64,000 nucleotides of DNA from Brachypodium distachyon. Taxonomy: Eukaryota; Streptophyta; Magnoliopsida; Poales; Poaceae. This document shows, in pieces, positions 28,958 to 64,000 of the stretch. Position 1 is the first letter of the stretch. Each line of letters opens with the position of its first letter. Position numbers and translations under genes: made by a program. The notes under the pieces are model-generated. The model saw nothing but the letters and a program-made list of their open reading frames with translations, was not told where the DNA came from and did no database searches. The stretch is from the NCBI RefSeq assembly GCF_000005505.3, contig NC_016135.3, positions 24,150,613-24,214,612 on the forward strand, read 5' to 3'.

Positions 28958-31900
28958 ATGGCGGGCAGAGTCCTGAAGCTGCCGCACACTTCTTCTCTCG
29001 CGCCGGCAAACGCTCGCTCCTCCTCCGGCAGCCCACCGTGCGGTCTACCATGCGGCCGGGTGCTGCCGGTGCGACCGGGCAGAGCTAATTCCTGGCCTGC
29101 CGTGGCGACAGGTAAAGACTTCATGCCATCCACCTTCTTAATTTAAAACGTTCGAGAGAAAATAGGTTCTACTGCAGGCAGTACTACTAATTAATGTCCA
29201 AAGCACACGTTAACAAATGTCCAATTAATATTGATCTGGTGACCCTCATTTTTTTTACTTTGTAAATTGTCCTCCTCCTCACAGCAGTCAGTAAGAGCAG
29301 GCCGCAAGTTGGAGAAAATGCTGCAATCAGCCTGCAAAACCTGGTATACATGGATGGAGCTCTCGCAGTCTCGGTAGTGATAAATAATCCTTTTTGGCGG
29401 CCATTTCTGAAGTTCATGCCGTGAGGCTCTTTTCATCATTGTCTAACGCTTCTGCCATTGTTTCAGTTAGGATTAGTGAATGGCACGGGTCAGAGGAAAC
29501 CCGAACAGTGGCCCTCTTCCCACGACGACACGGCAGAGGTGGCTACGGCGGAGCCGCCCTTGCCGGGCTCCCACGAGGTTCGTCCGTGCTTCCCAACGTA
29601 TCCGCCGAGAAATATGCACCGCCAGCTTTCTACGGTGGATGTGCTCGAGAAGATTGGAATATCTCGGCATTTTGCTGTCGAGATAAAGAGTATCCTGGAC
29701 GTGACATACAGGTAGGCATTTATACGCACTGCTAGGTACTCCGTATTGTCTTGAGTAGAGATCATTAGCGACTTAACAGGAGCCATTTTGCAGCTGCTGG
29801 CTACAGAGGGACGAGGAGATCGTGCTGGATCTGGAGACATGTGCCATGGCGTTTCGCATCCTACGGATGAACGGATATGACGTCTCATCTGGTACAGTAT
29901 ACTCCTTGTAACCGTAATTTTTTTTTCTGATTCTTTGGGCTGTATTTCAACACGCTGATTGATTATCCACCTGAAACATTATGCAGATGACCTGTCTCAT
30001 GTTTCTGAAGCCTCCAGTGATTTCAGTGACACGGTGTCTTTGTTGGAATTATACAAGGCTTCACAAGTTAGCATTTCTGAAGATGAGCTGATTCTAGACA
30101 GTATAGGATCCTGGACAGGCTGCCTGCTGAAAGAACAGCTGAGCTCTAGTCCGGTGCAAAGAACTCCACTCTTCAGAGAGGTACCTTCAAGTGCAATTAG
30201 TATCGATCCCTGCATCAATCTGATGGAGGTTTTGATATGCTCACTGCTATGCTGTTGTGCTCTTAATTAGGTACAACATGCTCTTGATAGCCCCTTCTAC
30301 ACCACGCTGGACCGTCTAGAGCATAAGAGGAACATCGAACAGTTTGATGCTATGGAGCATCAGATGCTAAAAACACCATACTCGTAAGTTTCTTCTTCCT
30401 TCCCCAAAATAAGTTCCCATCCGATCTAGTACGTGAATTACACACTGCTTAAACCAGAATGCAAGAAGAGAGAAAACAACATTATTGCATTTGTTAAGCA
30501 GGCCTGGCCAAACAAGCCAGCAGGATCTTGTAGCTCTGGGCGCCATGGATTTCAGCAGGATCCAATCCGTTTACCAGCGCGAACTCCAGCATCTCGACAG
30601 GTACGTGACGTCTGATCGACAGTAAAATTAGACAGCGTCCATTTTCTGCCTTACCAAGGCGATTTGCGCCCTTTCGTTTTCTGCCTACACTACAGCTGGG
30701 TGAAAGAGAGCAGGCTGGACCAGCTGCCGTTCGCGCGGCAGAAGCTGGCCTACTTCTACCTCTCCGCCGCCGGCACCATGTTCCCGCCGGAGCTCTCCGA
30801 CGCCCGCGTCGTATGGGCCAAGAACGGCGTGCTCACCACGGTCGTCGACGACTTCTTCGACGTCGCCGGGTCGAAACAAGAGCTCGAAAACCTCGCCGCG
30901 TTAGTCGAGACGTAAATTTACACATCCGATGTTTTTTCCCTTTAGATTCAACGCTCTTTCTCAAAGCAAACGTTGGGGGTTCTCACTGTTAATGCCCTTC
31001 CCATGGTTGGCTTGCCGCAGTTGGGACGAGCACGAGGAAACCGCCGGCGGGTGCTGCTGCTCCTCGGAGCACGTCGAGATCTTGTTCTCGGCGATCTACG
31101 GCTCCGTGAACGAGCTCGGAGCCAAGGCATCCGCGGCGCAGGGCCGCGACGTCACCGGGCACCTAGTAGAAATCGTTAGTCCCATCCGCATGATTTCTGG
31201 ATAATCTCTTACTGAACATAATCTGCCGTGCTGAATCCTGATATTTTCAGAATTCGATGTCTCGTACGTGTTTGTGTTCGTGCAGTGGCAGGAGCTGCTG
31301 AGGTCGATGATGACCGAGGTGGAGTGGAAGGAGAGCGGGCACGTGCCGACGGCGGAGGAGTACATGGGCAACGCGGTCGTGACATTCACTCTGGGCCCTA
31401 TCGTGCTCCCGGCCCTGTACTTCGCCGGGCCCAAGATTGCGGAGTCCGTCGTAACCGGCCCGGAGTACAACGAGCTGTTCCGGCTCATGAGCACCTGCGG
31501 CCGTCTCCTCAACGACGTGCAGACCTACGAGGTACTCTTCTACCTTGCCCTGAATCTTCTGAATTTGCCCAACAAAATTGGGTTTTAATCTGTTGATCTT
31601 GTGATCTATTGATTGCCCGCAGAGGGAGTACGTGGAGGGGAAGCTGAACAGCGTGTCGCTGCTGGTGCTTCGGAGCGGCGGCTCCATGACGATAGAGGAG
31701 GCGAGGAGGGAGATGCAGGGGCCAATAGACGCGTGCAGGAGAGACCTGCTGAGGTTGGTCCTCAGGGAGGACAGCGCCGTGCCCCGGCCCTGCAGGGAGC
31801 TGTTCTGGGACATGTGCAAGACGTGCTATTTTTTCTACTCCGGGAGCGACGCCTTCAGCTCGCCGGACCAGAAGGCCGGCGCCGTGGACGCCTTGATCCA

Positions 31901-31964
31901 TTTGCCCCTTCAGCTCGCCAGCGGGAATCTGCTCTCCGGTCTCGATTTTTCTGATTCCTTGTGA
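28958..31964 (+). CDS. KSL: KSL-1: shortened class I diterpene synthase
   Basis: Eleven exons: 28958-29111, 29285-29343, 29467-29711, 29794-29891, 29987-30180, 30271-30383, 30502-30600, 30696-30911, 31021-31174, 31286-31531, 31623-31964. They join in phase to 639 aa; KSL-2 has about 858. Order: plastid-transit-like N-terminus (about 1-52), a worn remnant of the SxYDTAW region (SSHDDTAE, 88-95), then directly the beta/alpha part from residue about 115. DDFFD is at 372-376, PIV at 482-484 and NDVQTYERE at 520-528, so the class I site looks intact. The third exon is a fusion of the exons equal to KSL-2 exons 3 and 6; about 190 residues between them are deleted in frame. Late exons are much more GC-rich than KSL-2. 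It should ionise a copalyl diphosphate in the plastid if folded, but could be a recent pseudogene. An upstream in-frame ATG at 28940 is possible. Confidence 0.82.
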
Positions 31965-63400: not shown

Positions 63401-64000
63401 TTGCTTTTCAGAAGTTCTTCTAATAACTGTAATTTGGATAGGGAAAGGGGTCACATATCATTCATATCAGTCTCTTTTTAACAATGAAATTAGCAATCAG
63501 AAGTATGGCATGTATTACCTGTGAATAACATTTTTAAAAACTTTTGACCTAATTCAGACTTTATGAGGATAAATCTTATGGGAGAGAAGCATATATGGCT
63601 TATGTTGCTGAAGGGTTAGGAAACCTGCTGAACTGGAACGAAGTTATGAAGTTTCAGAGGAAGAATGGATCATTCTTCAACTCTCCTTCCTCAACTGCTG
63701 CTGCATTAATCCACAATTATGATGACAAAGCCCTCCAGTACCTCAAATTTACTGTCAATAAATTTGGTAGTTCAGGTAGGTTTATGTACCTTTCCTTGTC
63801 AAGAATATGTAAGCATGCAGCCTGTTGCTAAGTTCCGTATGACATTAACTTTTGCAGTACCAACAGTGTACCCAACAAATATATATTGTCAGCTTTCAAT
63901 GGTGGATTCTCTTGAAAAGATTGGGATATCTCATCATTTTTCTTGTGAGATAAAGAGCATCCTGGACGTGACATACAGGTAATGAACATGATTATGCCTT
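60405..64000 (+). CDS. KSL: KSL-3: class I diterpene synthase, 5' part
   Basis: Six exons are seen before the window ends: 60405-60669, 62576-62625, 62693-62969, 63058-63238, 63558-63775 and 63858-63978, in phase, 370 codons. Exon 1 starts MSNPKVAAGAS, matching MSGPKVSVARS of KSL-2, is Arg/Ser/Ala-rich (plastid transit peptide) and ends TTAG|GTAAAGG in the phase needed by exon 2. An in-frame ATG 45 bp upstream is possible. SSYDTAW is present in exon 3, and exons 3-6 follow KSL-2 closely, with exons 4-6 equal in length. The alpha domain with DDxxD lies beyond the window, so class I status is inferred from the KSL-2 likeness. Intron 1 (1.9 kb) holds transposon debris. Confidence 0.88.
60935..61165. 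mobile_element. Degenerate relative of the hAT-type MITE
   Basis: CCGGGTTTCGGGCCGAGCTT...AAAGCCTGGC, an AT-rich core with CATACCTATTTTTT, then TTTTGGGCCATGATTTGGGC resemble the arms and core of the element at 41787-42084. Both ends are worn and no target duplication is visible. Lies in KSL-3 intron 1. Confidence 0.45.
62035..62292 (-). mobile_element. 258-bp insertion flanked by 14-bp direct repeats
   Basis: CTGTTCGTGAAGAA occurs at 62021-62034 and again at 62293-62306 without mismatch, enclosing 258 bp. On the minus strand the insert ends TTAACAAAATTTCGGCC, which resembles a LINE or other retroelement 3' end, but no A-tail is seen. Probably a short, strongly 5'-truncated retroelement in KSL-3 intron 1; class uncertain. 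Confidence 0.6.

Follow-up and report, generated by a model that had tools for sequence, protein, structure and literature searches.

The question raised by the second half of a 64,000-nucleotide stretch of Brachypodium distachyon DNA (assembly GCF_000005505.3, contig NC_016135.3, chromosome 5, positions 24,150,613 to 24,214,612 of the forward strand; the whole stretch is called here the window, and positions are counted from its first letter) is whether a row of genes of the kaurene synthase (KS) family, together with cytochrome P450 (P450) genes, constitutes a diterpenoid gene cluster, and which of its members belong to hormone synthesis. We hold it reasonably probable that the locus is an old grass KS tandem array, comparable to that of rice chromosome 4, whose middle gene is the gibberellin KS and which has been enlarged by duplicates and P450 genes into a candidate diterpenoid cluster. 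This explanation is built on the gene content, open frames, motifs and phylogenetic placement observed here, and on one spliced contig of the middle gene, KSL2.

The plus strand carries three genes of the kaurene synthase family (KSL1 to KSL3, for KS-like), the minus strand two pairs of intact P450 genes (P450A to P450D) of two exons each. The gene models were built by hand on the translated window and then checked by script, and all 31 modelled introns have GT-AG borders (10 in KSL1, 13 in KSL2, four in KSL3 and four in the P450 genes). KSL1 (28940-31964, +, 11 exons, 644 residues) is followed by KSL2 (32538-37200, +, 14 exons, 858 residues), by the P450 genes and by KSL3 (+), whose first exon begins at 60405 and which runs past 64000, being truncated by the window end after its modelled exons 2-6. 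Both terpene synthase (TPS) domains of Pfam were found in KSL1, in the KSL2 contig protein P0001, in P0021 (the KSL3 protein) and in two further KSLs, 5g21480 and 5g21497, and the p450 domain in the four annotated P450 proteins. Models and domains thus bear out what the initial annotation had described: seven genes of two enzyme families in 35 kb, the KSLs on the plus and the P450s on the minus strand, in the order KSL-KSL-4xP450-KSL. Neighbours from at least two biosynthetic families, a mark of a plant biosynthetic gene cluster (BGC), are present (three KS/KSL and four P450 genes), and the proposed cluster is real as a KS/KSL and P450 cluster; its assignment to diterpenoid synthesis has to be amended in that KSL2 is most likely the hormone KS and KSL1 a gamma-less member of an old clade. 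The count of three KSLs likewise stands with two corrections, since the window ends within KSL3 and KSL1 lacks the gamma-domain exons. As also claimed, no unrelated host gene was seen between them: among ten intergenic open reading frames (ORFs) of at least 120 residues, a single one has a significant Pfam domain (a zf-RVT retrotransposon fragment, 42604-43014), with the limit that smaller exons may have escaped. A tblastn search of the window with 16 KS/KSL and 14 P450 queries (E 0.01) yielded no further copies or remnants of these families.

KSL2 is most likely the gibberellin ent-kaurene synthase and not a defence KSL, to judge from its sequence. Its model (exons 32538-32793, 33195-33244, 33336-33621, 33716-33896, 34180-34397, 34482-34602, 34682-34779, 34860-35080, 35157-35269, 35360-35455, 35529-35744, 35852-35993, 36072-36317 and 36868-37200, +) encodes a three-domain enzyme with both metal-binding motifs, a DDFFD of the DDxxD type (35680-35694, +) within TTVVDDFFD, and NDSQGFERE of the NSE type. 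TTVVDDFFD and GPIVLP represent the TTxxDDxxD extension and the PIV motif with its isoleucine, which are given as specific to hormone KSs in a review (PMC9945934). Among the matches listed for KSL2, the first two are P0001 (100%, the contig protein) and an Ananas protein (P0002, 58%), and the following 18 (P0003-P0020) are all pooid proteins with 80-83% identity, several of them named ent-kaurene synthase. When five B. distachyon KS/KSL proteins were compared with TaKS and with the barley, Poa and rice KS, KSL2 was the top scorer. A 60-row tree (KSL1, KSL2 and 58 of the 120 matches listed from a total of 1112) and a 39-row alpha-beta tree, from which we chose to remove 21 of the 60 rows as short, redundant or long-branch, both group KSL2 with TaKS, barley KS and Poa KS as members of the pooid KS clade; in the latter tree this clade, a nine-row set that includes KSL3, has a support of 100/99, and the branch of KSL2 measures 0.088 against 0.22 for KSL3. 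P0001 is identical to KSL2 over 756 residues (exons 3-14) and is encoded by a 2579-bp contig without introns, indicating that KSL2 is transcribed. The N-terminus is represented by an open exon 1 (32538-32793) that resembles the start of TaKS by eye only and is absent from the transcript contig. P0001 itself starts within intron 1 (33167-33194, +), where an in-frame GTG is read as Met, and its contig either retains the end of this intron or begins there.

These data bear on the proposal that the locus is purely a defence cluster, in which all three KSLs would be specialised and the gibberellin KS would lie elsewhere. The divergence of KSL3 from the KS motifs and the presence of P450s agree with it, but it is made very improbable by the short branch of KSL2 within the pooid KS clade, by its two hormone-KS motifs and by its being the closest of the five B. 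distachyon proteins to the KSs of wheat, barley, Poa and rice.

On its domain content and its place in the tree, KSL1 is a gamma-less member of the old tandem partner clade of the KS. Its exons (28940-29111, 29288-29343, 29467-29711, 29794-29891, 29987-30180, 30271-30383, 30502-30600, 30696-30911, 31021-31174, 31286-31531 and 31623-31964, +) lack about 187 residues, which correspond to the gamma-domain region (residues 144-330 of KSL2), and comparison of model and alignment identifies the third one (29467-29711, +) as a fused exon, which in the model runs in frame from the beginning of canonical exon 3 straight into canonical exon 6. Its Terpene_synth match begins at profile position 31, its Terpene_synth_C domain is complete, and the motifs TTVVDDFFD, PIVLP and NDVQTYERE are kept, so that KSL1 combines absence of gamma with retention of the class I motifs, as expected of a gamma-less KSL. 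In the 39-row tree it falls within the OsKSL2/OsKSL3 clade, together with Phragmites and Stipagrostis proteins (100/100); its identity is 68-70% to OsKSL2 and OsKSL3 and, in the alpha-beta part, 75% to the Phragmites homolog. The ratio of nonsynonymous to synonymous divergence (dN/dS) between KSL1 and KSL2 is about 0.11, a value that averages both lineages and is affected by a saturated dS. Gamma-less TPS-e enzymes with a broad substrate range have been described in grasses, namely wheat KSL5 (TaKSL5) and maize TPS1 (ZmTPS1) (PMC6779861), and KSL1 is like them in its beta-alpha architecture, its class I motifs and its membership of the KS family; neither of the two was recognised among the 120 listed KSL2 matches.

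That KSL1 is a decaying pseudogene, inactivated by the gamma-domain deletion, is possible, if on balance unlikely. Its exons 1-3 are weakly conserved and hard to align with other KSs, and the alignment shows a shortened loop, but an open frame could be modelled with ten out of ten GT-AG introns, which weakened an early suspicion of a plain pseudogene; moreover, the alpha-beta part keeps its similarity to the Phragmites homolog, and the gamma-less grass KSLs on record are described as active (PMC6779861). In 2000 simulated runs of neutral drift, the KSL1 frame stayed free of stops in 0.4% of cases at 0.1 substitutions per site, in 5% at 0.05 and in 31% at 0.02, which makes an old pseudogene, and only that, unlikely, while a recent one is possible.

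KSL3 is, from its longer branch, a faster-evolving duplicate within the KS clade. Exon 1 (60405-60669, +) was found by tblastn with P0021 (100% over 88 residues), ends at a GT donor and is followed by a 1.9-kb intron and by exons 2-6 (62576-62625, 62693-62969, 63058-63238, 63558-63775 and 63858-63978, +). P0021, which is BRADI_5g21440v3, aligns with KSL3 exon by exon in tblastn and is 98.9% identical to the model (281 columns); the two differ by three residues at a single acceptor. Compared with KSL2, dN/dS is 0.39 and dS 0.40 (281 codons). The full protein carries VTVIDDFFD, and GPTVLP where the KS has GPIVLP; this switch residue lies past the window and was read from P0021. Since threonine in place of isoleucine at this position is reported to lead to isopimaradiene (review PMC9945934), the switch threonine predicts a pimaradiene-type olefin as the product of KSL3. 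The acceptor of exon 3 is uncertain (62687-62702, +): P0021 continues from 62702, another protein, P0069, from 62687, and our model from 62693.

Between KSL2 and KSL3 lie P450A (38530-40138, -, exons 40138-39227 and 39144-38530, 508 residues), P450B (43639-45429, -, exons 45429-44494 and 44274-43639, 523 residues), P450C (50630-52261, -, exons 52261-51350 and 51253-50630, 511 residues) and P450D (55169-56810, -, exons 56810-55893 and 55792-55169, 513 residues). The first three are identical to the B. distachyon proteins P0121, P0124 and P0241, respectively, and residues 45-513 of P450D are identical to P0242, an annotated form of 469 residues that begins 44 residues later than the model. An origin in rice, which the enzyme set had suggested at first, was abandoned on account of these 100% identities to B. 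distachyon. Identities are 74-75% between A and B, 86-89% between C and D and 43-47% between the pairs. Sequences of one P450 subfamily share, by the usual convention, at least 55% identity, and the two pairs therefore represent two subfamilies, as previously proposed. Of the CYP99A, CYP71 and CYP76 genes that the initial annotation had named for known clusters, all four look like the CYP71 type (C and D in a second such subfamily) and not like the other two, in a comparison that included no named sequence of CYP99A or CYP76M. An assignment of P450C and P450D to CYP76M, based on a motif resemblance, was dropped; P450C and its B. distachyon relatives are named CYP71-type or otherwise, and no CYP76 occurs among the names listed. 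Database names such as ent-cassadiene C2-hydroxylase, ent-isokaurene C2-hydroxylase, 71AV8 or tabersonine 3-oxygenase are no evidence of function. Comparison with solved structures gave distant relatives only, the best being ferruginol synthase and abietadiene synthase. The pairs have a dN/dS of 0.44 (A/B) and 0.26 (C/D) and a dS of 0.32 and 0.26, respectively, which suggests that they arose somewhat later than the KS duplication (dS 0.40).

The array appears to extend past the window, by locus tag. The match lists contain a P450 (BRADI_5g21460, 71% identical to P450A) and two KSLs (BRADI_5g21480 and 5g21497), none of which maps into the window at 90% identity or more, except for a 32-residue stretch of 5g21480 within KSL2; the order of the tags suggests that KSL3 is followed by this P450 and then by the two KSLs. 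Both of these KSLs fall in a six-row set with TaKSL2 (100/98), and TaKSL2 is the nearest of seven references (75%), whereas none of the three window KSLs belongs to the TaKSL2/TaKSL3 clade. In wheat, BGC 2(2B) is described as consisting of TaCPS1, TaKSL2, TaKSL3 and two CYPs (PMC9169793), and the available text of Polturak et al. 2022 links this cluster to "a putative terpene BGC in B. distachyon Chr.5". The present locus is probably that BGC, because the B. distachyon matches of the TaKSL2 clade are precisely 5g21480 and 5g21497, and the earlier description of the pathway as undescribed was therefore too strong. The correspondence to wheat comes with two differences: the TaKSL2-clade genes of B. 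distachyon lie beyond the window by locus tag, and a copalyl diphosphate synthase (CPS), present in wheat as TaCPS1, was not detected in the window with the KS-type queries used. The five locus tags looked for do not occur in the main text of openly licensed papers, where the prefixes Bradi5g213 and Bradi5g214 led to a single paper, on MAPKKK genes, with a Bradi5g213 tag; in the accessible parts of two further sources, no B. distachyon KS locus was found in a paper on grass gibberellin genes (PMC4455330) and no mention of Brachypodium in a survey of the TPS family (PMC6681836).

Plant P450s and KSLs are often tandem-duplicated, and the KS/KSL array and the CYP71 pairs could each have grown by local duplication as chance neighbours, the P450s serving another pathway and no metabolic cluster existing. 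The recent age of the pairs (dS 0.32 and 0.26) agrees with this, as do the wheat P450A relatives CFC21_020632, 020633 and 020642, which are separated from the KSLs CFC21_020890 and 020891 by some 250 locus numbers. We nevertheless consider it rather unlikely, in view of the P450s being enclosed by KSL2 and KSL3, of 5g21460 standing, by locus tag, between 5g21440 and 5g21480, and of the terpene cluster that Polturak et al. flagged on B. distachyon chromosome 5. In another case, 14 locus numbers separate the wheat P450A relative P0188 (CFC21_014585, 61%) from wheat KSL1 (P0086, CFC21_014599), on contigs of equal size, suggesting that the P450A group keeps company with KSLs elsewhere.

Orthology of the locus with the momilactone or the phytocassane cluster of rice is hardly credible. 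The enzyme classes are the same, KSL and P450 genes lying together as in the momilactone cluster, and the NCBI names of P450A and P450B, probably assigned automatically, refer to ent-cassadiene and ent-isokaurene C2-hydroxylase. In both trees, however, KSL1, KSL2 and KSL3 (as P0021) are all outside the clade of OsKSL4, the momilactone KSL, which contradicts the momilactone version; the phytocassane enzymes OsKSL5-7 were not among the sequences compared. In addition, the KS-type queries detected no CPS in the window, the ORFs scanned contain no dehydrogenase domain, and for the momilactone-like wheat cluster 1 Polturak et al. report, in the text available, that no homologue was found in B. distachyon.

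The closest precedents for an old KS tandem array are found in other grasses. On rice chromosome 4 three KS genes are reported in tandem, with OsKS1 as the gibberellin gene (PMC4742901), and KS1 and KSL2 are described as adjacent genes in Oryza (PMC12401587); the matches OsKS1, OsKSL2 and OsKSL3 are each listed on a contig of 36,078,568 bp. The rice array (OsKS1, OsKS2, OsKS3) and the Brachypodium one are alike in having a KS beside genes of the OsKSL2/3 clade, but Brachypodium has an additional KS duplicate and interleaved CYP71-like P450s, and its KSL1 lacks the gamma domain, which the two aligned rice copies (763 and 819 residues) retain. In maize, going by the title of Fu et al. 2016, KS genes with roles in hormone and in specialised metabolism reportedly form a tandem array; this array, ZmKSL3-ZmKSL5-ZmTPS1, is said to contain the hormone KS and KS-like copies, including gamma-less makers of ent-kaurene, and is not known to have P450s inside. 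The maize array and the Setaria genes SiTPS28 and SiTPS29 thus resemble the present one in joining a hormone KS to KS-like copies. Shimada et al. 2023 reportedly characterised diterpene synthase genes of B. distachyon. For the Setaria pair, syntenic orthologs in B. distachyon have been indicated (PMC7497057). The arrangement is of a kind already known in grasses, and the locus itself has probably been noticed before.

Several points weigh against the explanation of the locus as an old KS array with a hormone gene in its middle that became a diterpenoid cluster. The hormone motifs alone cannot single out KSL2, because 5g21497 also has TTxxDDxxD and PIV (KSL1 too carries TTVVDDFFD and PIVLP); the branching order of KSL2, KSL3 and the other KSs within their clade is not settled by the alpha-beta tree (87/87), and exon 1 of KSL2 is without transcript support, because the P0001 contig begins inside intron 1. 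To the weak conservation of KSL1 exons 1-3 is added a less certain 5' end, since at exons 2 and 3 we selected those acceptors that maintain an open frame, which nearby alternatives would not. The switch residue of KSL3 is not decisive, because TaKSL2 keeps the isoleucine and yet makes a pimaradiene (PMC9169793). The distance of the three wheat P450A relatives from KSLs counts here too, and the P450s, like a vacuolar sorting receptor gene upstream of the array, could be chance neighbours. Finally, no TPS-like stretch besides KSL1-3, and hence no CPS, was detected in the window, in line with the initial annotation, the queries being of KS/KSL type with no CPS among them. A CPS inside the cluster is not obligatory, given that rice momilactone synthesis is described as using genes of another cluster (PMC11840401).

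If the array works as proposed, a CPS encoded outside the window would make ent-copalyl diphosphate (ent-CPP), to be shared by several class I synthases. KSL2 would convert ent-CPP into ent-kaurene for gibberellin; KSL1, with its ent-kaurene motifs and without gamma, would form ent-kaurene or a compound close to it, and prenyl diphosphates of shorter chain may be further substrates of this enzyme. In KSL3, the threonine at the switch position would end the reaction earlier, so that a pimaradiene-type olefin is released, and 5g21480 and 5g21497 would supply other olefins. The P450 pairs A/B and C/D may hydroxylate the olefins of KSL3, 5g21480 and 5g21497. All these products, as well as the co-regulation of the genes and a role in defence, are what we infer. 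A more specific and doubtful extension places the hormone gene at the core of the diterpenoid cluster: the gibberellin KS, a KSL that lost gamma independently by one in-frame deletion from exon 3 to exon 6, and a duplicate altered at the switch residue would all draw on a common supply of ent-CPP, the P450 pairs having been captured in the spaces between these genes, and a defence cluster would be seen arising around its hormone-pathway parent while still including it. The hormone gene and the gamma-less copy within one array are worth a look by specialists. Should the proposal be true, a grass model with a small genome would allow hormone and defence diterpene synthesis to be separated gene by gene, and the loss of gamma and the change from isoleucine to threonine could be examined next to the parent enzyme in its unchanged form. 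Caution would also be called for, as not every KSL in such a cluster is a defence gene and deletion of the whole cluster would likely abolish gibberellin synthesis.

Other features of the window lie mostly upstream of the array. The vacuolar sorting receptor gene (13940-15388, probably to about 16950, +) has VSR_TRX and PA domains; a pooled table row for wheat diterpenoid clusters responsive to Fusarium includes such a receptor (PMC8018971), and the gene is a possible synteny marker with these clusters. A tRNA-Ala gene (CGC, 389-461, -) was the sole match of the Rfam and tRNA scans. A gene of the BAHD acyltransferase type (7483-10137, +) is split into two pieces (Pfam Transferase, profile positions 9-138 and 136-302) and contains HLIGD, with DFGWG not seen in its translated end; in this it is presumably reminiscent of CER2-like proteins. 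Fragments of non-LTR-type retrotransposons with zf-RVT and RVT_3 domains occur at 5861-6608 and at 42604-43014 (+), and an ORF at 19745-20164 (-) has an RRM match (E 1.1e-4). Around the P450 genes there are short related repeats, direct and inverted, of the miniature inverted-repeat transposable element type (40593-40721, 41037-41165 and 57003-57129), and a tandem repeat of 91 bp in 1.9 copies lies at 41533-41710.

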